From Desulfovibrio sp. (GTDB taxonomy: Bacteria; Desulfobacterota; Desulfovibrionia; Desulfovibrionales; Desulfovibrionaceae), in contig JAISZH010000146.1 in the NCBI GenBank assembly GCA_031269345.1, positions 1 to 33,453 of the forward strand: DNA of 33,453 nucleotides, written 5' to 3'. The notes under the pieces are model-generated. The model made no database searches and was not told the DNA's origin. It saw only the letters and a list, made by a program, of their open reading frames with translations. The position numbers and the translations under genes are program-made. Positions 5,145-31,837 of this stretch are shown piece after piece. The number at the start of each line of letters is the position of its first letter. Position 1 is the first letter of the stretch.

Positions 5145-5432
5145 TTACTTGCCCGCCTGGGGCAGAATCATTTCCACTTCGCCGTGCGGACGTGGGATGA
5201 CATGCACGGAGAGCAGTTCGCCAACCCGGCTCGCCGCCGCCGCCCCGGCGTCGGTGGCGGCCTTGACCGCGCCCACGTCGCCGCGGACCATCACGGTCAC
5301 CAGGCCGCCGCCCACCAGCACCTTGCCCATCAAGGTGACGTTGGCGGCTTTGACCATGGCGTCGGCGGCCTCAATGGCTCCGACCAGTCCTTTGGTTTCA
5401 ATCATGCCTAAGGCACGGGTATCAATGGACAT
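5145..5432 (-). CDS. eutM: EutM-like hexameric shell protein, copy 1 (promoter-distal)
   Basis: A 95-residue single-domain BMC-H protein that forms flat hexamers of the shell. It contains [50 protein letters not shown] and the EutM-type end [17 protein letters not shown]. The pore loop reads L-V-G-G-G where E. coli EutM has Q-I-G-G-G. A longer frame opens upstream, but the ATG at 5432 has GAGGAGGT eight bases before it, and the homology starts there. About 82 of 95 residues match the second copy at 5679. The differences sit mainly in the first six residues and the last four. Confidence 0.95.
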
Positions 5433-5525: not shown

Positions 5526-5664
5526 ATGTCGATTCGCTTTCGCTGGAAAGCGAATCGGTACGCGGAGGCGAAGCCGCCGCCCGCGGGTTTTTGAAAAATC
5601 AAGCTTCGCCTGTTTTTCAAAAGCCTTGGCGTCCTGCATTCAAACTCGTTTGAATGCGACTTGA
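5526..5664 (-). repeat. Hairpin array family C, copy a (between the two eutM genes)
   Basis: Stem-loops in reverse orientation: CGATTCGCTTTC/GAAAGCGAATCG at 5530-5557 (12-bp perfect stem); a GC-rich GGCG/CGCC region near 5565-5580; a long AT-rich stem with TTTTTGAAAAA and TTTTTCAAAA arms around 5588-5622; and GCATTCAAAC/GTTTGAATGC at 5636-5657. Same layout as the copies at 5,996, 27,682 and 29,680. Confidence 0.88.
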
Positions 5665-5678
5665 TATGAGACGGTGGT

Positions 5679-5966
5679 CTACCCTTCGGCTTTGGGCAGA
5701 ATCATCTCGACTTCACTATGGGGGCGGGGGATGACGTGAACGGAGACCAGCTCGCCCACCCGTCCGGCCGCCGCCGCCCCGGCGTCTGTGGCGGCCTTGA
5801 CCGCGCCCACGTCGCCGCGGACCGTTACCGTGACCAGACCTCCGCCCACCAGCACCTTGCCGGTCAGGGTGACGTTGGCGGCTTTGACCATGGCGTCGGC
5901 AGCCTCAATGGCCCCGACCAGTCCCTTGGTTTCAATCATGCCCAGTGCCTGTTGCGGATTGTCCAT
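5679..5966 (-). CDS. eutM: EutM-like hexameric shell protein, copy 2 (promoter-proximal)
   Basis: Second 95-residue BMC-H protein, starting [20 protein letters not shown] and ending [20 protein letters not shown] plus a final Gly. The pore loop L-V-G-G-G is the same as in the neighbour at 5145. Internal differences from that copy are few (Thr for Met at two positions, Gly for Ser, Val for Leu, Ser for Gly). The ATG at 5966 has GGAGGGAG upstream. The gene is separated from its paralogue by one family C array and from eutE by another in the same orientation. This pattern suggests tandem duplication of an array-plus-gene unit. Confidence 0.95.
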
Positions 5967-5995: not shown

Positions 5996-6137
5996 ATACC
6001 AATTTGCTTTCGACAGAAAGCCAATTGGGATGGCGGAGGCAAAGCCGCCGCCCGCAAGTTTTTGAAAAATCAGGCTTCGCCTGTTTTTCAAAAACTTTTG
6101 CGTCTTGCATCCAAACTCGTTTGAATGCAACTTGGTA
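5996..6137 (-). repeat. Hairpin array family C, copy b (between eutE and eutM)
   Basis: Reverse orientation. Stems: CCAATT.GCTTTC/GAAAGC.AATTGG at 5999-6028; GGCGG/CCGCC near 6032-6052; a near-perfect long stem of TTTTTGAAAAA-CAGGC and GCCTG-TTTTTCAAAAA arms around 6059-6094; and TTGCATYCAAAC/GTTTGAATGCAA at 6104-6130. It is open in reading frames on both strands. Its plus-strand frame gives LLSTESQLGWRRQSRRPQV, which nearly matches the peptide found inside HflX. Confidence 0.88.
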
Positions 6138-7610
6138 TTACAGGTTGGCCTTCAGGCGTTCCATTATTCTGGAAACCAGCGCGTCAAGGGCTGCTTCGTT
6201 CAGAAGCGGCGCGGCCCCGGTTTCCGACTGAATTTTCGGTCTTATGTCTTCTATCTCGCGCAATCCGTAAGCCACCCGGCGGACGTTGATCAGGTTGAGC
6301 GGCCCCACGTTGTCGGAAGTGGCGTTATGGCCCACCGCCCCGCATCCCAGGGTCAGGGAGGGGGCCACGGCGGCGGTGGCCCCGATGGCCGCGAGCGCCG
6401 CGGGAGAGTTGACAATCAGCCGTGAAACCGGCTTTTTCAGGCCGAACTCCCGGATTACCGCCTCGTCGCGCGAATGGATGCTCATGGTGTGCCCCGCGCC
6501 TTCCAGAGAGAGTATCTCAATGCAGCGCAGGCAGGCTTTTTCCCAGTTCTCCTCGACATAAAAGCCCAGAACCGGCATGAGTTTCTCTTTGGAATAGGGA
6601 ACCTTTTCCCCCACCCTGGTTTCTTCGCCCAAAAGCACCCGCACCCCGGCCGGGATGCTGATGCCGGCGGTTTGCGCGATCACCTCCGGGGAACGGCCGA
6701 CCAACCTGGCGTTCATGGTGCCGCCGGGGCCCATAAGCACCTTTTCCACCTTTTCCGAATCTCCTGGAGGCAGGAAATAGCCGCCCTGTTTCTTGACCTC
6801 GGCCATTACCTCCTGCCGGATGCAGCTTTCGGTAATGATGGACTGTTCCGATGCGCAGATGGTGCCGTTGTCGAAGGTTTTGGAATCGAAAATGCGCTTG
6901 ACGGCCAGGGGGATGTCCGCGCTGCGCTCGATAAACGACGGACCGTTGCCCGGGCCTACGCCTATAGCCGGGGTGCCGGAGCTGTAAGCCGCGTGCACCA
7001 TGGCGTTGCCGCCGGTGGCCAGGATGAGGTTCATCCGCGGATGGGTCATCAGGGTGCGGGTCCCCTCCAGTGTGGGGTTGGTCAGGCAGGTAACCAGATT
7101 TGGCGGCAGACCGAGGCTTTTGAGCACCCCGCGCACGATCCTGACCGTTTCCATGATGCAGTTCTTCGCGCCGGGGTGAGGCGAAAAAATCACGGCGCAC
7201 CCCGCCTTCAGGGCAATCAGCGATTTGAAGATAGTCGTGGAGGTGGGATTGGTCGAGGGGATCAGGGCGGTCACCAGACCGACCGGCACGCCGACTTCAA
7301 AGATCCGGTTTTCCGCATCCTTGCGGATAAGACCGACGGTCTTCATATCTTTAATGTGCTCGTAAACGGTGCGCGAGGCAAAGAGGTTTTTGACCACCTT
7401 GTCCTGCCAGATCCCGAAGCCGGTCTCCTCGTGAGCCAGCTTGGCCAGCCGGACTGCCTGGGCTTCCGCGGCTTTTGCCGCGCAAGCCACGGCATTGTCC
7501 ACAGCGGCCTGATCCAGCTCACGATAGATATCCTGGGCCTCGGCGGCCAGTTGCACCAAATTGCGGGCTTCCTGAATTGAAATCAGGTCCAGGTCTTTGA
7601 CTGTGATCAA
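6138..7610 (-). CDS. eutE: EutE, CoA-acylating acetaldehyde dehydrogenase
   Basis: EutE oxidises acetaldehyde with NAD+ and CoA to acetyl-CoA inside the compartment, keeping the toxic aldehyde contained. The 490-residue protein has the aldehyde dehydrogenase fold. Visible blocks are GVPVGLVTALIPSTNPTSTT, the glycine-rich ATGGNAMVHAAYSSGTPAIG, and the catalytic cysteine in DNGTICASEQS (Cys252). The start is TTG (7608-7610), with AGGAGG six bases before it. The N-terminus begins close to the ALDH core and lacks the about 30-residue amphipathic targeting peptide of enterobacterial EutE. It may be recruited by another cargo protein or by an internal signal. Confidence 0.95.
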   Translation of the reverse strand: MITVKDLDLISIQEARNLVQLAAEAQDIYRELDQAAVDNAVACAAKAAEAQAVRLAKLAHEETGFGIWQDKVVKNLFASRTVYEHIKDMKTVGLIRKDAENRIFEVGVPVGLVTALIPSTNPTSTTIFKSLIALKAGCAVIFSPHPGAKNCIMETVRIVRGVLKSLGLPPNLVTCLTNPTLEGTRTLMTHPRMNLILATGGNAMVHAAYSSGTPAIGVGPGNGPSFIERSADIPLAVKRIFDSKTFDNGTICASEQSIITESCIRQEVMAEVKKQGGYFLPPGDSEKVEKVLMGPGGTMNARLVGRSPEVIAQTAGISIPAGVRVLLGEETRVGEKVPYSKEKLMPVLGFYVEENWEKACLRCIEILSLEGAGHTMSIHSRDEAVIREFGLKKPVSRLIVNSPAALAAIGATAAVAPSLTLGCGAVGHNATSDNVGPLNLINVRRVAYGLREIEDIRPKIQSETGAAPLLNEAALDALVSRIMERLKANL

Positions 7611-12210: not shown

Positions 12211-12290
12211 GGGAATAACAGCGTGCAGGGACGGCTACGTCTGCGTGATGTTGAGTTTTGACGGCCAAATCAAACCGCAAGGGAATTTTT

Positions 12291-12365
12291 ACGGATTTCC
12301 GCATGGAAATCCGGACAGCGGCCCGACGGCCGCTGTCGCCCAAGGAAAAGTTTATTTTTCAATGC
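12291..12365 (-). repeat. Hairpin array family A/B, copy 3 (internally deleted)
   Basis: Reverse orientation. hp4 is at 12,292-12,313 (CGGATTTCC/GGAAATCCG) and hp3 at 12,314-12,337 (GACAGCGGCC/GGCCGCTGTC, 10-bp perfect stem). A remnant of hp0 (GGAAAAGTTTATTTTTC) runs to about 12,360. hp1 and hp2 are missing, as if deleted between conserved linkers. The array ends 12 bases before the rubredoxin start, so it forms that gene's leader. Confidence 0.8.
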
Positions 12366-19282: not shown

Positions 19283-19417
19283 TTGATACCCGCAGTCAAA
19301 AGCAAACTTTTCCCTGTGGAGGATCGCCAGCCGGAAACGCGGTTTTCGGCTGACTTGCGCCGCTTGGCGGCGACAGCGGCCGCCGGGCCGCTGTTCAGAT
19401 TTCCATGCGGAAATCTG
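19283..19417 (+). repeat. Five-hairpin array family A/B, copy 4 (A subtype)
   Basis: It opens with TTGATACCCGCAGTCAAAAG (hp0 remnant). Then hp1 at 19,328-19,352 (CAGCCGGAAAC/GTTTTCGGCTG), hp2 at 19,358-19,372 (CGCCGC/GCGGCG), hp3 at 19,373-19,394 (ACAGCGGCC/GGCCGCTGT) and hp4 at 19,396-19,417 (CAGATTTCC/GGAAATCTG). A further hairpin GCGTGTT/AACACGC lies at 19,227-19,253. The 19,087-19,555 gap holds only these and the FIST leader. Confidence 0.9.
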
Positions 19418-19555
19418 TATTTTATGCATGTTTAAATCCGCAGTTTCCGTCCGCCGGTTGGAGAGGATGCGCCCGCAGCGCGGAGGAGGGTCATGCCGGG
19501 CGTCAGGCGGGAATATCCATAATGGGAGAGGCTTCAAACCATAGAGGTATTTTTG

Positions 19556-24262: not shown

Positions 24263-26475
24263 AAGCCGCCTCCCTGTTCCGCCCCCAGGCGCCTGTCCAG
24301 CCAACTGTAACGCCTGTGCATGCGGTTGTTGCCCACAGCCATGTGCATGGCCCGCGGCGACCCTACCAGCACCACGAGCCGTTTGCCCCTGGTCACTCCT
24401 GTGTAAAGCAGGTTGCGTTGCAGGAGCATGTAGTGTTCGGTCAGCACCGGGATGACGACGGCCGGGTACTCCGACCCCTGGGACTTGTGGACACTGACGG
24501 CGTAGGCCATGCTTATCTCGTCCAGTTCCTCGTAAGAATAAAGGATGTTCTTGTCCTCATAGCGCACCACAAGCTCCCGGTCTTCTTCGTTTATCAGGCG
24601 GATTCTGCCAATATCTCCGTTAAAGACGTCCTTGTCGTAGTTGTTTCTGGTCTGCATGACCTTGTCGCCCAGATAAAAGCTGCGCGCCCCGCGTTTTATG
24701 CACTGCTCCCGGCTGTTCAGGGCCGCCTGCAGGCGGACGTTCAGCTCTTCAACCCCGGTCGCGCCCTTGTGCATTGGGGAAAGAACCTGTATCTCGTCCA
24801 CCGGATCGAAGCGGAATTTGTTGGGGATGCGCTCGCGCACCAGTTCAATGATCAGATCCGCCGCTTCGGCGGGGTTGTCGCGCCGGATGAAATAAAAGTC
24901 CGAGGACGCGCTGCTGTTGCTGCGCAAAGGCGGAACTTCGCCGCGATTTATGAGGTGCGCGTTGACTATTATATCGCTTTCCGCCGCTTGCCGGAAAATT
25001 TCCGTCAAGCGCACGATTTTTGCCGCCCCGGATTTCATTATATCCCCGAGTACGTTCCCCGGGCCCACCGAGGGAAGCTGGTTCACGTCTCCGGCCAGGA
25101 CCAGGGTGCTGCCCAGGGGCAGGGCTTTGGCCAGATGGAACGTGAGCATGGTGTCCAGCATGGAGGCTTCGTCAATGACCAGAAGACCGCAGGCCAGGGG
25201 ATGGTCTTCGTTGCGGGCGAAGCCGTCTTCGCGAGGACTGTATTCGAGAAGCCTGTGGATGGTTTTGGCGTCTTTTTCCGTTGCTTCGGCCATACGCCGG
25301 GCGGCCCGGCCGGTGGGGGCGGCCAGGAGCACTTTGGCGCCCCTTTTTTCATAGAGTTTTATGATGGCGTTGATGACCGTGGTTTTGCCCGTCCCGGGGC
25401 CGCCGGTGATCACCAGCAGCTTGTCCGAAAGCGCGGCGCGCGCTGCCTTGATCTGTTCGTCAGCCAGTTCCAGAGGCAACATGCTTAACACCCCTGCCAG
25501 CAAGACCTCCGGATCGGGGAAATGCACCGATTTTGGAGAATTCAGCATACGCCGTAAATAGTGGGCGATGTTTTTTTCATAATGATAATAGCGGGTGAGG
25601 TACACGCCGAAATACGGCCGCCCCAGGTCTTCGGACAATTCGTCTATGACGACGCGCTGCTCTTCGGCGAGCGCGCGCAGGGCCTCGCGCACGGTTTGCG
25701 TTTCCACGCGCAATTCATCGGAACATTTGTGTACCAGCTCCTCAAGGGGAAAAAAGACATGTCCTTCGTCGCCGAGCTTGCGCAGCAGGTAGAGCAGTCC
25801 GGCTTCAGCGCGCAGACTCCCGCCCGGATCAAAGCCCAGTTTCAGGGCTATGGCGTCGGCGGTGACAAAGCCTATGCCCTGGATGTCCATGGCCAGCCGA
25901 TAGGGGTTCTCTTTCACTACGCCCAAAGCGCCCGTTCCGTATTCCTTGAAGATGCGCACGGCGTAAGCCGCTGATATGCCGTGCGGCTGCAAAAACATAA
26001 TAAGATCCCTGAGTCCCCTGTGCTCGGCCCAGGCGGTTTTTATTCCTTCAAGCTTGCGCCGGGAGATCCCCTTGATCTGCGTCAGCAGCTCCGGCTCCTC
26101 GTCCAGCACACGAAAGGCGTCCTGACCGAATTTGTCTACAATGCGCTTGGCCATGCGCGGACCGACCCCCTTGATCAGCCCCGAGCCAAGGTAGTGCATG
26201 ATCCCGTCAATGTCCGCCGGAAGCAGGCTCTCGAAACTCGTCATTTTGAATTGGCGCCCGAAACGCTGGTCGTTTACCCAGACCCCGGTTACGCTCAAGG
26301 CCGCCCCGGGCTGGGGCGAGGGTATCTCGCCCACCACGGTGACCGGGTCGGCCAGACTTTGCAGTTTGAGACGCAGTACGGTCCAGTAGTTTTCCTCATT
26401 GTGGAAAACAACTCGATCCACCGTGCCGCGCAACGTGCGAAGCGCGTCTTCGTCAGGAGAGGGTTGCGTGTTCAT
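24259..26475 (-). CDS. recD2: RecD2-type ATP-dependent 5'-3' DNA helicase
   Basis: A superfamily 1B helicase of the RecD2 family, which works without RecBC; in other bacteria it affects repair and genome stability. The 738-residue protein has an N-terminal OB-like region (residues 1-90), helix-hairpin-helix repeats (GVGPRMAKRIVDKFG, ITQIKGISRRKLEG-like LLTQIKGISRRKLEG, IQGIGFVTADAIA), Walker A GGPGTGKTT with Lys364, Walker B LLVIDEASML, motif III LVLAGDVNQLPSVGPGN, and the UvrD C-terminal motif YAVSVHKSQGSEYPAVV. The ATG at 26,475 lies inside the end of hflX (23-bp overlap), indicating co-transcription. Chi-like or nuclease domains are absent, as expected. Confidence 0.95.
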   Translation of the reverse strand: MNTQPSPDEDALRTLRGTVDRVVFHNEENYWTVLRLKLQSLADPVTVVGEIPSPQPGAALSVTGVWVNDQRFGRQFKMTSFESLLPADIDGIMHYLGSGLIKGVGPRMAKRIVDKFGQDAFRVLDEEPELLTQIKGISRRKLEGIKTAWAEHRGLRDLIMFLQPHGISAAYAVRIFKEYGTGALGVVKENPYRLAMDIQGIGFVTADAIALKLGFDPGGSLRAEAGLLYLLRKLGDEGHVFFPLEELVHKCSDELRVETQTVREALRALAEEQRVVIDELSEDLGRPYFGVYLTRYYHYEKNIAHYLRRMLNSPKSVHFPDPEVLLAGVLSMLPLELADEQIKAARAALSDKLLVITGGPGTGKTTVINAIIKLYEKRGAKVLLAAPTGRAARRMAEATEKDAKTIHRLLEYSPREDGFARNEDHPLACGLLVIDEASMLDTMLTFHLAKALPLGSTLVLAGDVNQLPSVGPGNVLGDIMKSGAAKIVRLTEIFRQAAESDIIVNAHLINRGEVPPLRSNSSASSDFYFIRRDNPAEAADLIIELVRERIPNKFRFDPVDEIQVLSPMHKGATGVEELNVRLQAALNSREQCIKRGARSFYLGDKVMQTRNNYDKDVFNGDIGRIRLINEEDRELVVRYEDKNILYSYEELDEISMAYAVSVHKSQGSEYPAVVIPVLTEHYMLLQRNLLYTGVTRGKRLVVLVGSPRAMHMAVGNNRMHRRYSWLDRRLGAEQGGGL

Positions 26476-28393
26476 CAGTTCTGTTTCTTAGCTCCCTTGC
26501 GCGCATCCAGTCAATGCGCCCCGCTATCGCCTCCGCAAGTTCCTTGAGTCCCGTTCCCGCGCGCGCCGATATGAAATAGGCGCCGGGGTGCGCCCGCTCC
26601 AGGTCCTGAAGAGCCTGACGCGTCAGGTGTTTGGGCGCCTGTGCGCCCTCCGGCGCATATTCTTCGGCAAAGGCGTCTATTTTGTTCAACGCCAAAAGCC
26701 TTGGCGTTTTATCCAGGCCGAGCTGTTCCAGAATTTCCTCAACCGCCCCAAGCTGCATTTCAAGTTCCGGGTGCGAGGCGTCAAGCACATGCAAAAGCAG
26801 TTCCGCTTCTTCCAGTTCCTCCAGCGTGGCCTGAAAGGCTTCCGTCAGTTCGCGCGGCAGGCTGCGCATAAAACCCACGGTGTCTGTCAGGACGACTTCA
26901 CGCTCCTCGGGAAAGCGCAAGCGCCGGGCGGCCGGGTCCAAAGTCGCGAAAAGACGGTTTTCCGTTTCGGCCGCGGCCCCGGTCAGGGCGTTCAGCAGCG
27001 TGCTTTTCCCGGCGTTGGTGTAGCCGACGAGCGCGACGACGGGCAGACTGTTTTTGGCGCGTCGGGCTCTGGCATAGGCGCGTTGTCTGCGTAAAATTTT
27101 TAAGGCCGACTTGATGCTGGTCACCCTTTCCCTGAGGCGGCGGCGGTCGGTTTCCAGTTTGCTTTCGCCCGGACCCCTGCCGCCGATGCCCCCCGCCAGA
27201 CGGTCCAGAGCGCGGCTTTTTCCGACCAGTCGCGGCAGCATGTACTGGAGCTGCGCCAGTTCGACCTGCAGTTTACCGGTCCGGCTGCGCGCCCTTTGCG
27301 CGAAAATATCCAGAATGAGCTGTGTCCGATCCAGGACCCTGCGTTCTGTGATCTCGGTCAGGTTGCCCAACTGGGCCGGCGTGAGCTCGGCGTCAAAAAT
27401 GATCAGGCCGGCGTTGCTTCGTAAAGCCTGAATCTCAAGTTCCGCCAGTTTTCCCTTTCCCAGAATGAAACGGGGGTTTATCCGGTTCACCCTCTGCACC
27501 AGCACGCCCTTGACCTGGACTCTGGCGGAGCGCGCCAGTTCCGCAAGTTCTTTCAGGCCGGATTCCATTTCCTCCCTGGGTTTTGTGGACACGCTTACCA
27601 GGATGGCCATGTTTTCCGGCCCTGTGTCCGCCGCGACGCCTTTCCGGCAAATACCGCTTATCCGATCGGAGAAAGGGTCGTGGTGCCAAGTTGCATCCAA
27701 ACGTGGTTGAATGCAAGACGCCAAAGTTGTTGAAAAACAGACGAAGTCTGATTTTTCAACAACTTGTGGGCGGCGGCTTTGCCTGCTCCATCCCAATTCG
27801 CTGTCTGTCGAAAGCAAATTGATATGATGCGCCGGCGCGGCGGGATCTGTCGCCTGTTTTGCGAAGCCGCCCCGCGAACCTTTGCGCTTGTGCCGCGCAA
27901 AAGCGCCGATCTCCGTGAAGTCGCGGGCCAGTTCCGCTTCTATCGCCAGGGCTTCCGCGACGAAGTCCGCATCCGGCTGATCCCACGGCGTCGGCGGGTA
28001 TAGCCTGTAAGGGGAATTACCGGGATTCGGCGGCAGCAGGTGCGCGCGTTGCAGGCGCACCGGGTCGCCTTTTTCATCCACGCACAAAACCGCCATGGCG
28101 TCCAGCCGCAGGAAAAGCAGGTCCATCAGGTCTTCCTGGGACAGAAGGTCGGCGTTCAGGTGGGTATGCAGAAAACGCAGGCCGCGCAAGCGATCCGCGC
28201 CTTCCCGGGCGCGGGCGAGTTGGGGGATCAGGATGCGCGCGGCATCCCCGACAAGGACCATGCGCGGGTGCCCCTGCCGGTCTATGAGCAGACCTATTTG
28301 CCGTCCGCTTTGTCTTGACAGCCTGGAAAGCTCGCGCGCCTGCTCCAGGCTGTAGCCGGCGGACGGAAAGCGCCGCGCGTACAGGCGGAGCAT
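26453..28393 (-). CDS. hflX: HflX, ribosome-associated GTPase, interrupted in frame by a hairpin array
   Basis: HflX splits stalled or heat-damaged ribosomes using GTP. Domains: an N-terminal domain typical of deltaproteobacterial HflX (about residues 1-170), the HflX glycine-rich region (about 270-430, with GVLVQRVNRINPRFILGKGK and GGIGGRGPGESKLETDRR), and a G domain with Walker A GYTNAGKST (Lys463), DTVGF and NKID. Residues about 190-236 (INLLSTDSELGWSRQSRR and onward) are encoded by a family C array at 27,682-27,826, without breaking the frame. The coordinates use the first ATG. Conserved residues KLEGNTQGLKPSLIRA lie in frame upstream of it, and the only suitable codon before them is ATC at 28,445-28,447, seven bases after AGGA. 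Confidence 0.93.
   Translation of the reverse strand: MLRLYARRFPSAGYSLEQARELSRLSRQSGRQIGLLIDRQGHPRMVLVGDAARILIPQLARAREGADRLRGLRFLHTHLNADLLSQEDLMDLLFLRLDAMAVLCVDEKGDPVRLQRAHLLPPNPGNSPYRLYPPTPWDQPDADFVAEALAIEAELARDFTEIGAFARHKRKGSRGGFAKQATDPAAPAHHINLLSTDSELGWSRQSRRPQVVEKSDFVCFSTTLASCIQPRLDATWHHDPFSDRISGICRKGVAADTGPENMAILVSVSTKPREEMESGLKELAELARSARVQVKGVLVQRVNRINPRFILGKGKLAELEIQALRSNAGLIIFDAELTPAQLGNLTEITERRVLDRTQLILDIFAQRARSRTGKLQVELAQLQYMLPRLVGKSRALDRLAGGIGGRGPGESKLETDRRRLRERVTSIKSALKILRRQRAYARARRAKNSLPVVALVGYTNAGKSTLLNALTGAAAETENRLFATLDPAARRLRFPEEREVVLTDTVGFMRSLPRELTEAFQATLEELEEAELLLHVLDASHPELEMQLGAVEEILEQLGLDKTPRLLALNKIDAFAEEYAPEGAQAPKHLTRQALQDLERAHPGAYFISARAGTGLKELAEAIAGRIDWMRARELRNRTDEHATLS
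27682..27826 (+). repeat. Hairpin array family C, copy c (inside the hflX coding sequence)
   Basis: Same order as the 29.7-kb copy: a GCATCCAAAC/GGTTGAATGC-type stem (27,692-27,714), a long AT-rich stem with GTTGTTGAAAAA and TTTTTCAACAAC arms (27,726-27,763), a GGCGGCGGC/GCC stem (27,770-27,785), and CCAATTCGCT-type arms (27,793-27,822) with several mismatches. It is translated on the minus strand as part of HflX. Its more frequent mismatches than copy d suggest drift since insertion. Confidence 0.88.
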
Positions 28394-28459
28394 GGCCCTG
28401 ATCAGGCTTGGCTTAAGCCCCTGGGTATTTCCTTCCAGTTTGGCGATGGCGTTTTCCTG

Positions 28460-29071
28460 TTATTTTGCGCGCTCGCCGCCGCTTGCGGACAGATAGGCGG
28501 CGATTTCCGCGTCATAAGCGGACGTGGCCGAAAAAACCCGCACGGCGCACTCCCTGCGCAGGTCAAGCGGCGCTTTCATGGAGCCGGTCGCAAGAATTCG
28601 CATTATCCGCGGATAGAGCGAGGGCGAATCCACCGCCAGCACGGAGCGGTAATTCTTTGCCGCCGCCCGCAGCAGGCAGGGGCCGCCGATATCGATCTCT
28701 TCCACGGCCGCGTCCGCCGGGAGGTTGTTTTCCGCCGCCAGAGAAAAATTATACAGATTGACGCACACAAGATCAAAGGGCGGGACTCCGAGGTGTTCAA
28801 GGCTTTGCATGTGCGCGGTCTTGTCCTTGTCCGCGAGGACCCCGGCATAAATGTACGGGTGAAGGGTTTTTACCCGTCCGTCCAGGATTTCCGGAAAACC
28901 TGTGAGGGCGTTTACCTCCAGCACCGTTATGCCCGCTTTTTGCAGCAAGCCTGCCGTGCCGCCTGTGGAAACGATTTCCACCCCGTTGTGAGCGAGAAAG
29001 GCGGCAAATTCGTGAAGCCCGCTTTTGTCGGTCACGCTCAGGATGGCTCTTCTGATGGGCAGCAATTCCAT
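28460..29071 (-). CDS. purH: IMP cyclohydrolase, stand-alone PurH N-terminal domain
   Basis: Catalyses the last step of IMP synthesis, closing FAICAR to IMP. The 203-residue protein is only the MGS-like cyclohydrolase half of bifunctional PurH; the AICAR transformylase half is absent, as in other Desulfovibrio. Conserved blocks: RRAILSVTDKSGLHEFAAFL, VEIVSTGGTAGLLQKAGI, EILDGRVKTLHPYIYAG, VCVNLYNF (catalytic Tyr region) and EEIDIGGPCLLRAAAKNY (Asp and Lys of the active site). The frame is open upstream, but the ATG at 29,071 with AGGAAAAGAG ahead fits homology. The stop TAA is next to the hflX start region, so purH and hflX may share a transcript. Confidence 0.93.
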   Translation of the reverse strand: MELLPIRRAILSVTDKSGLHEFAAFLAHNGVEIVSTGGTAGLLQKAGITVLEVNALTGFPEILDGRVKTLHPYIYAGVLADKDKTAHMQSLEHLGVPPFDLVCVNLYNFSLAAENNLPADAAVEEIDIGGPCLLRAAAKNYRSVLAVDSPSLYPRIMRILATGSMKAPLDLRRECAVRVFSATSAYDAEIAAYLSASGGERAK

Positions 29072-29679: not shown

Positions 29680-29822
29680 CATACCAAGTCGCATTCAAAC
29701 GAGTTTGAATGCAAGACTCCAAAGTTTTTGAAAAACAGGCGAAGTCTGATTTTCAAAAATTTACGGGCGGCGGTTTTCCTCCGCCATCCCAATTCGCTTT
29801 CTATCGAAAGCGAATTGGGATC
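29680..29822 (+). repeat. Hairpin array family C, copy d (best preserved)
   Basis: Four stems: GCATTCAAAC/GTTTGAATGC at 29,691-29,712; TTTTTGAAAAA and TTTTCAAAAA arms near 29,724-29,760 with GCGAAG in the loop; GGCGG/CCGCC near 29,766-29,785; and ATCCCAATTCGCTTTC/GAAAGCGAATTGGGAT at 29,786-29,821 (16-bp perfect stem). It lies between the ferredoxin gene and the small gene upstream of purH. Confidence 0.9.
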
Positions 29823-30094: not shown

Positions 30095-30242
30095 TACCCG
30101 CGTTTACTGATATCCGCATTGAAAAGTAAACCTTTCCCTGCGGAGGATCGTCAGCCGAAAACGCGGTTTTCGGCTGACTTGCGCCACTTCGCGGCGACAG
30201 CGGCCGCCGGGCCGCTGTTCAGATTTCCATGAGCAAATCTGT
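30095..30242 (+). repeat. Five-hairpin array family A/B, copy 5 (A subtype)
   Basis: It begins ATACCCGCGTTTACTGATAT, with an hp0 remnant (TTGAAAAGTAAACCTTTCC). hp1 is at 30,151-30,177 (TCAGCCGAAAA/TTTTCGGCTGA), hp2 near 30,182-30,196 is weakened by one mismatch, hp3 is at 30,197-30,218 (ACAGCGGCC/GGCCGCTGT), and hp4 at 30,220-30,241 is partly decayed. It lies upstream of the ferredoxin gene (divergent). Confidence 0.88.
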
Positions 30243-30363
30243 ATATGCAGATTTTGAGTTCGGGCAGGGCGGACGCCGCGGTTTGCAGGCACGGCGCGGC
30301 TATACGGCTCAATAGCCGCGACCCCATGGCCTGTCAAGTAAATTTTTTATTGTAAATTTTTTA

Positions 30364-30428: not shown

Positions 30429-31514
30429 ATGTCCTTGCCCGACGATTTGCAGAGTGAGTGTGTCCTGATTCGCGACCCGTCGGCCTTCCGCAGTTTCGAC
30501 CTCGAAGCCGCAGCCGCGCGTCGTCTGGATTCCCTGTTGAAGCCCCCCGGCAGCCTCGGGCGTCTGGAGGAAATCGCCAGGGCTCTGTATGTGATTCAGG
30601 GCTCTGCGCCCTTGCGCGTCAGGCCCGCGCGCGTTTATGTAATCTGCGCGGATCACGGGGTGGTGGATCAGGGCGTCAGCTCTCAGCCCAGGGAGGTGAC
30701 TGCTGTGCTCATGCGCGGATTTCTCGCGGACGGGCTTGGCATAAACTGCCTCTGCCGTTCGGTGAACGCGCAGGCCTTGCTTGTGGACGCGGGCTGCGCG
30801 GCTTTTATGCCCGAGCATCCGCGGCTGATCAGGGCAAACATTGCTCCGGGCACAGCGGATATGTCTCTGGGGCCGGCCATGAGCGTGGAGCAATGCCTTG
30901 ACGCCCTGCGGCTGGGCGTGAAGCTGGCTGCGCAGGCGCATCAGGATGGAGTGCGCGCGCTTGGCACCGGGGAGATAGGCATAGGCAACTCCACTGCCGC
31001 GACCGCGCTTTTTTGCGCCTGCCTCGGCTTTGCTCCGGAGGAGATATGCGGGATGGGCGCCGGTTGTCCGCCGGGCGGGATTGAGCATAAGAGCGCTGTT
31101 ATCCGCAAAGCGCTTCAGCGAAATGAGGGGGCCGTCCGGGACGAGGACCCTCTCGCCGCCCTGTCGGCTTTCGGCGGCTTCGAGATCATCGCCCTGGCCG
31201 GGCTGATTATAGGCGCGGCCGCGCGCTCAATCCCGGTAATGGTGGACGGTTTCATTTCTACCGCCGCCTATGTGGCGGCCTGCCGCCTTGCTCCGGCGGC
31301 GCGCTTTTATTGCTTTTTCAGCCACACCTCGGCGGAGGCCGGGCACGTCAAAATTTTGCGCGGACTGGGCGTCAAGCCCTTTTTTGAATTGGGCATGCGC
31401 CTGGGCGAAGGGACAGGCGCGGCCCTGGGCTTCACCCTGCTGGATGGGGCGGCTTCCGTTTTTAATGATATGCTGACCCTTGACGGCGCCGGAGTGGTCA
31501 TTCCGAACTCTTGA
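30429..31514 (+). CDS. cobT: CobT, nicotinate-nucleotide:dimethylbenzimidazole phosphoribosyltransferase
   Basis: CobT moves phosphoribose from nicotinate mononucleotide to the lower-ligand base (5,6-dimethylbenzimidazole or similar), a step in finishing cobalamin. The 361-residue protein has the family length. Blocks seen: LLKPPGSLGRLEEIARAL, VYVICADHGVVDQGVS, GIGNSTAATALFCACLG, AFGGFEIIALAGLIIGAAA, PVMVDGFISTAAYVAACRL and the catalytic Glu327 in MRLGEGTGAALGF. The ATG at 30,429 has only a weak GCGGA ahead. The TGA stop is supplied by the first bases of array copy 6. It is likely tied to the B12 demand of the eut lyase. Confidence 0.96.
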   Translation: MSLPDDLQSECVLIRDPSAFRSFDLEAAAARRLDSLLKPPGSLGRLEEIARALYVIQGSAPLRVRPARVYVICADHGVVDQGVSSQPREVTAVLMRGFLADGLGINCLCRSVNAQALLVDAGCAAFMPEHPRLIRANIAPGTADMSLGPAMSVEQCLDALRLGVKLAAQAHQDGVRALGTGEIGIGNSTAATALFCACLGFAPEEICGMGAGCPPGGIEHKSAVIRKALQRNEGAVRDEDPLAALSAFGGFEIIALAGLIIGAAARSIPVMVDGFISTAAYVAACRLAPAARFYCFFSHTSAEAGHVKILRGLGVKPFFELGMRLGEGTGAALGFTLLDGAASVFNDMLTLDGAGVVIPNS

Positions 31515-31598
31515 TACCCGCATTGAAAAGTAAACTTTTCCCTACGGAAGATGGTCAGCCGAAAACGCGGTTTTCGGCTGGCCTGTGCCGCTTCGCGT
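31512..31598 (+). repeat. Hairpin array family A/B, copy 6 (truncated after hp1)
   Basis: It starts TGATACCCGCATTGAAAAGT, whose TGA is the cobT stop. The hp0 remnant is TTGAAAAGTAAACTTTTCC (31,523-31,541). hp1 is at 31,556-31,580 (CAGCCGAAAAC/GTTTTCGGCTG). hp2 is broken (GCCGCTTCGCG), and the copy ends against the 3' end of xseB. Between convergent genes it may serve as a two-way terminator. Confidence 0.85.
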
Positions 31599-31600
31599 CA

Positions 31601-31837
31601 TCAATTCCGAAGCCGGTCGGCAAAAGGCGTTTCCCCTTCCCCATCGCAGAGAAGAACGCTGTGTCTGGCCTTTTCCAGCAGTTCCCGGCAGGACTGGGAA
31701 ATGGCCCGTCCTTCCCTGTAGAGTTCCACGCTTCTCTCCAGAGCTAACTCCGGATTTTCCAGTTCGCGCACAATTTCTTCCAGCCGCCGCATGCGCTCTT
31801 CAAAGCCCGGCTCTTCCCCGCCCTGTTCCGTACTCAT
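31601..31837 (-). CDS. xseB: Exodeoxyribonuclease VII small subunit
   Basis: XseB binds the XseA catalytic subunit to form exonuclease VII, which degrades single-stranded DNA. The 78-residue protein has the helical hairpin signature FEERMRRLEEIVRELENPEL followed by ALERSVELYREGRAI and the second helix SCRELLEKARHSV. The ATG at 31,837 has AAAGGA upstream and is one codon inside the open frame. The usual partners (xseA, ispA, dxs) are not adjacent. It ends next to array copy 6. Confidence 0.93.
   Translation of the reverse strand: MSTEQGGEEPGFEERMRRLEEIVRELENPELALERSVELYREGRAISQSCRELLEKARHSVLLCDGEGETPFADRLRN

Follow-up and report, generated by a model that had tools for sequence, protein, structure and literature searches.

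A 141-bp MITE inserted in frame in hflX of a Desulfovibrio and probably translated as 48 extra residues

Rickettsia palindromic elements (RPEs) are textbook selfish DNA that enters protein sequences. According to a 2024 review, RPEs are about 150 bp long and palindromic, and lie in frame in unrelated genes, to which they add roughly 50 residues (PMC10969869, citing Ogata 2000, 2002). The review considers in-frame fusions of intragenic MITEs "not unusual", with RPEs as the extreme case, nearly half of them being in genes, and calls the same phenomenon conceivable outside Rickettsia (PMC10969869). The IS1031 group of the IS5 family prefers 5'-TNA-3' targets, with an exclusive 3-bp repeat (PMC12016507). 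Here we describe a locus of a gut-type Desulfovibrio relative for which one reading is, in our judgement, very probably correct: a trans-mobilised 141-bp MITE inserted in frame into the linker of hflX and is read through as 48 extra residues.

HflX is a ribosome-rescue GTPase. In the window, by which we mean the whole stretch of 33,453 nucleotides analysed (contig JAISZH010000146.1 of a Desulfovibrio sp. draft genome, G000), the hflX ORF occupies 26453..28393 on the minus strand and encodes 646 aa from the first ATG, the frame being open for 22 codons further upstream. Its product scores 432 bits against the TIGR03156 GTP_HflX profile (cut-off 217), and the HflX core matched by this profile (residues 263-625; 26519..27609, minus strand) is located downstream of the insert. 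A first-pass annotation of this DNA had placed a hairpin array in frame within hflX at 27682-27826 and had credited it with about 48 extra residues. The array was found, with exact bounds 27684..27824 on the minus strand, where a 141-bp copy of the element encodes residues about 190-237 and leaves the hflX frame uninterrupted. On the coding strand this copy is preceded by TCA (27825..27827, minus strand) and followed by CCA (27681..27683, minus strand), an imperfect target duplication with one mismatch. Insert and duplication together, 141+3 bp, make 144 bp or 48 codons within the single 646-aa frame, in agreement with the residue count proposed earlier. A tryptic peptide predicted from the insert is SDFVCFSTTLASCIQPR. 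At the other end of the gene, HflX homology extends 5' of the first ATG (window about 28430-28460) to an in-frame ATC (GCC ATC GCC AAA CTG GAA), preceded by an AGGAAA motif both here and in G006, the closest relative for the HflX comparison; this ATC is possibly a rare start codon.

A BLAST search with the hflX element returned about 40 copies in its own genome (best E values 1e-79 to 1e-23), a result that chance cannot explain, and a query with the family consensus gave 67 matches, overlapping partial ones counted. The consensus is 141 bp long, with a mean agreement of 92% among aligned copies and 90% identity to the hflX copy. Its termini are the inverted repeats TACCAATTTGC and TACCAAGTTGC; the terminal repeat is TACCAA[T/G]TTGC, for which 152 ends gave the longer form TACCAA[T/G]TTGC[T/A]TT. 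About 33 of the 40 copies are intergenic. Among these are the copy at 5997..6137 (plus strand; TTA/TTA duplication), whose right TTA serves as the TAA stop for the gene at 6138-7610 on the minus strand, a 140-bp copy at 5527..5666 (plus strand; TGA/TGA) and a 139-bp copy at 29682..29820 (minus strand; TGA/TGA in element orientation). The resemblance claimed between the insert peptide and the translation of the intergenic copy at 5,996 held up, with 64% over 58 aa and an E value of 1.3e-18 for the copy at 5997-6137. Each strand of the consensus has a single open frame, which makes 2 open combinations out of 6 frames and orientations, and the longest frame is 48 codons. The element had also been described as open on both strands; this holds for the consensus, but in the hflX copy only the coding strand is open (in two of its three frames) and the other strand has no open frame. 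In the plasmid and phage collections searched, no sequence matched the element. In the MAG Desulfovibrio sp. Im510_bin59 (G003), several right ends that lie at contig ends match the consensus at 98% identity, a level that fits a recent spread in G003.

The HflX of G006 is about 87-90% identical; it aligns on either side of the insert and lacks exactly this piece. The insert is also absent from every other aligned HflX of the genus and family, as had been expected of related proteins. In the genus alignment, the linker differs between species in both length and sequence. An AlphaFold2 model built from a 19-sequence alignment, used in place of a single-sequence fold with a pLDDT of 34, had a mean pLDDT of 66; the flanking domains were largely at 70-90, while residues 157-256, insert included, scored under 50 and had almost no secondary structure, with none between 168 and 258. 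Judged by the alignment and this model, the insert is located in a variable, predicted disordered linker between the N-terminal domain and the HflX core. The earlier suggestion that this linker could tolerate additions agrees with its variability among species, its predicted disorder and the intact core.

Each copy in the genome was then read in all frames and called as intragenic or not by a codon-usage score together with stop positions. Six of the 40 copies are in genes: hflX, cbiG, comEC, an MMPL-type exporter, an ArnT/PMT-type glycosyltransferase and a radical-SAM fusion. At least five genes besides hflX thus carry in-frame copies, which the first-pass annotation had considered worth looking for. 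In cbiG and comEC, Pfam domains flank the insert on both sides, and a family domain was found in the other in-gene cases. Uninterrupted, insert-free orthologs are present in G006 for cbiG, comEC, the MMPL exporter and ArnT, i.e. for four of the five further genes. All six gene insertions are in frame and in phase 2, the sole stop-free frame of the strand read; with two of six combinations open, the chance of all six falling in an open one is about 0.001, or once in 700. The length including the duplication is divisible by 3 in 6/6 in-gene copies versus 10/23 full-length intergenic ones (Fisher p 0.017, on small counts); the ArnT copy, at 135 bp by its ends, falls 6 bp short of the family length. 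A seventh in-frame insertion is probable at L013, where the element lies 13-14 codons into a radical-SAM gene. Two other candidates suggested by the codon-usage classifier, L002 and the copy at 5527, were rejected as intragenic since stop positions place both in intergenic DNA. None of the about 47 copies in G003 and G008 lies clearly within a gene, so what G000 tolerates cannot be generalised to the whole family.

Many bacteria can do without HflX, and a strong hairpin in the mRNA could slow translation; on both counts, the insertion might have inactivated hflX and left a pseudogene at an early stage. We regard this as improbable. The gene has no stops or frameshifts and its TIGR03156 match is intact. 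Between G000 and G006, hflX shows a dN of 0.064 and a dS of 0.325 (dN/dS 0.20), and the balance of changes is equal on the two branches, with 10 nonsynonymous and 32 synonymous changes in G000 and 9 and 29 in G006. The preservation of the frame in all six gene insertions also argues against inactivation. The GTPase core of hflX is intact and under purifying selection, although a large part of the dN/dS signal may be older than the insertion. We infer that the insert peptide is translated in HflX and that the insertion is near neutral.

The consensus folds into four hairpins, with an RNA fold of -69 kcal/mol. In the hflX copy these are hairpin 1 (27793..27822), in which the left terminal repeat is folded on its own internal copy, the GC-rich hairpin 2 (27769..27789), hairpin 3 (27719..27768), a long central stem, and hairpin 4 (27691..27716), all on the minus strand. 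Among 54 copies, the hairpin pairing is kept in 95% of cells, and two-sided changes were observed at 14 pairs, where shuffles gave 4.9 and slid partners no more than 8. Two of these changes occur in no copy but that of hflX, where two base pairs of hairpin 3 (window 27719-27768) are changed on both sides. Selection on the structure or template-switch correction of palindromes could be the source of such changes. The strong fold and the compensatory changes in the hairpins could also speak for a rival reading in which the insert is taken out of the transcript or of the protein, or skipped by the ribosome, leaving an HflX that lacks it. This seems very improbable to us: length and phase maintain the frame, and since the frame is open throughout, no removal is needed; moreover, no Rfam family, intron or other, was matched within the window and no intein-type domain was matched.

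The preferred reading, insertion of a MITE that is read through, draws on a transposition signature common to the copies. The TNA flanks are identical on both sides in 23 of the 35 copies that could be resolved in this genome, compared with 11.2 when right ends were shuffled (0 of 20,000 shuffles as high). The same test in the relatives G003, G008, G004 and G012, mainly the first two, gave 38/47 against 13.7 expected (0 of 5,000 shuffles as high). TCA, TGA, TTA and TAA duplications are all present. The element is a MITE: it is short and without a transposase of its own, has terminal inverted repeats and 3-bp TNA duplications, and occurs in dispersed copies with empty sites in relatives. Short, numerous and mainly intergenic palindromes are also typical of REP/REPIN arrays, which RAYT-type Y1 transposases spread; this origin has hardly any probability here, G000 having no Y1_Tnp gene (merely degraded or partial ones occur in G003 and G008), and fixed terminal repeats with 3-bp duplications being unexpected for single-strand transposition by Y1 enzymes. 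An assembly artefact that fused an intergenic repeat into hflX, conceivable in a draft of 203 contigs since repeats disrupt assemblies, is just as improbable given that hflX continues on both sides in a single frame and is collinear with its G006 counterpart, that the hflX copy has private changes and near-matching TNA flanks, and that five other genes show the same pattern.

No autonomous partner with matching ends was found with the PF01609, PF13340, PF05598, PF13586 and PF01797 profiles in the drafts of G000, G003 and G008, nor was one seen when pairs of ends with a spacing of 250-3000 bp were sought. Several DUF4096/DDE_Tnp_1 loci, none with these ends, are cut by contig ends, and the partner may be absent from the draft assemblies. 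A lone element end in G003 (L189), followed as a transposase lead, was rejected because an ordinary non-transposase gene adjoins it. An IS5/IS1031-type transposase acting in trans is the natural guess, since that group prefers TNA and duplicates 3 bp (PMC12016507), and the analogy suggests a DDE transposase of this type. However, the end quoted for the IS1031 group starts with GAACCTG (PMC12016507), whereas the Desulfovibrio element starts with TACCAA.

In the mechanism that we propose, a transposase supplied in trans would have placed the 141-bp non-autonomous element into a TNA target in the hflX linker and duplicated 3 bp. The element would have entered in the phase and orientation of its stop-free frame; it is this entry, together with a length of 141+3 bp, or 48 codons, that would keep hflX open. 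The gene would then be translated straight through into an HflX in which 48 additional and probably unstructured residues separate the N-terminal domain from the core, and the same process would have affected at least five other genes. Selection would follow random insertion: the majority of gene insertions would be lost, and the survivors would be those in variable linkers and in an open phase.

The Desulfovibrio element resembles RPEs in its size, its palindromic nature and its in-frame insertion into genes (6/6). It differs in that the host is a Desulfovibrio relative, that most copies are intergenic and that a MITE signature was measured, the RPE families being set apart here by their description. 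In the literature accessible to the analysis, we found no description of a terminal-repeat and 3-bp duplication signature for RPEs. The RPE-like survival within genes put forward in the first-pass annotation can thus be retained as a way of working, but not as membership, given the MITE repeats and duplications and the mostly intergenic copies. With bacterial MITEs such as ERIC, Correia and the Anabaena MITEs, the element shares its shortness, non-autonomy, terminal repeats, target duplications and numerous copies; unlike them it forms a unit of exactly 48 codons and has a single open frame on each strand, ERIC and Correia again being set apart by description. With REP/REPIN elements and their RAYTs it has in common only that it is a short dispersed palindrome, since G000 is without a Y1 transposase and the element has duplications. 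On these comparisons, the element is a new MITE family, RPE-like in action, in a bacterium unrelated to Rickettsia. It offers a case outside Rickettsia with a legible transposition signature, empty sites in a sister species and a comparison of in-gene and intergenic copies within one family, which make it testable how often a mobile element persists in genes merely thanks to its length and its one open frame.

Two of the possible TNA targets, TGA and TAA, are stop codons, and an insertion at either one produces a second copy of the stop. At least six copies are clearly placed exactly in stop codons with a TGA or TAA duplication restoring the stop (window 6138-6140; also L009, L067, L135, L148 and L165), and up to 10 of 84 copies may be. 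That the element, with its stop-free frame on each strand, has been shaped for harmlessness, as a "gene-safe" transposon in which coding compatibility is selected for, is in our view unlikely; if true, the same peptide would be fed into many proteins.

Smaller relatives of the element were also observed. G003 has 34-bp elements (L175-L179; e.g. L175 near 498-531) that comprise hairpin 1 alone, formed by a head-to-head pair of terminal repeats; in 5/5 the 3-bp TNA duplication is exact. L180 has a 69-bp version. The 34-bp elements may be internal-deletion derivatives of the 141-bp MITE or very small mobile palindromes. A second short repeat family (CGATAAAAATTGTCATAATTTTTA core; L085, L105, L108 and L109) has the same terminal repeat, TRCCAATTCGC. 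This shared end suggests that one transposase may serve several MITE families. In the window itself, a multi-copy repeat of about 137 bp with internal palindromes is present at 19284-19420, 30108-30244, 31512-31648 and 12290-12340, and a 125-bp inverted repeat, 97% complementary, lies at the contig ends (192-316 and 33312-33436). The coding stretches 5155-5408 and 5689-5942 are 88% identical over 254 bp and are apparently duplicated microcompartment shell genes; the MITE copy at 5527-5666 lies between them and the copy at 5997-6137 just beyond.
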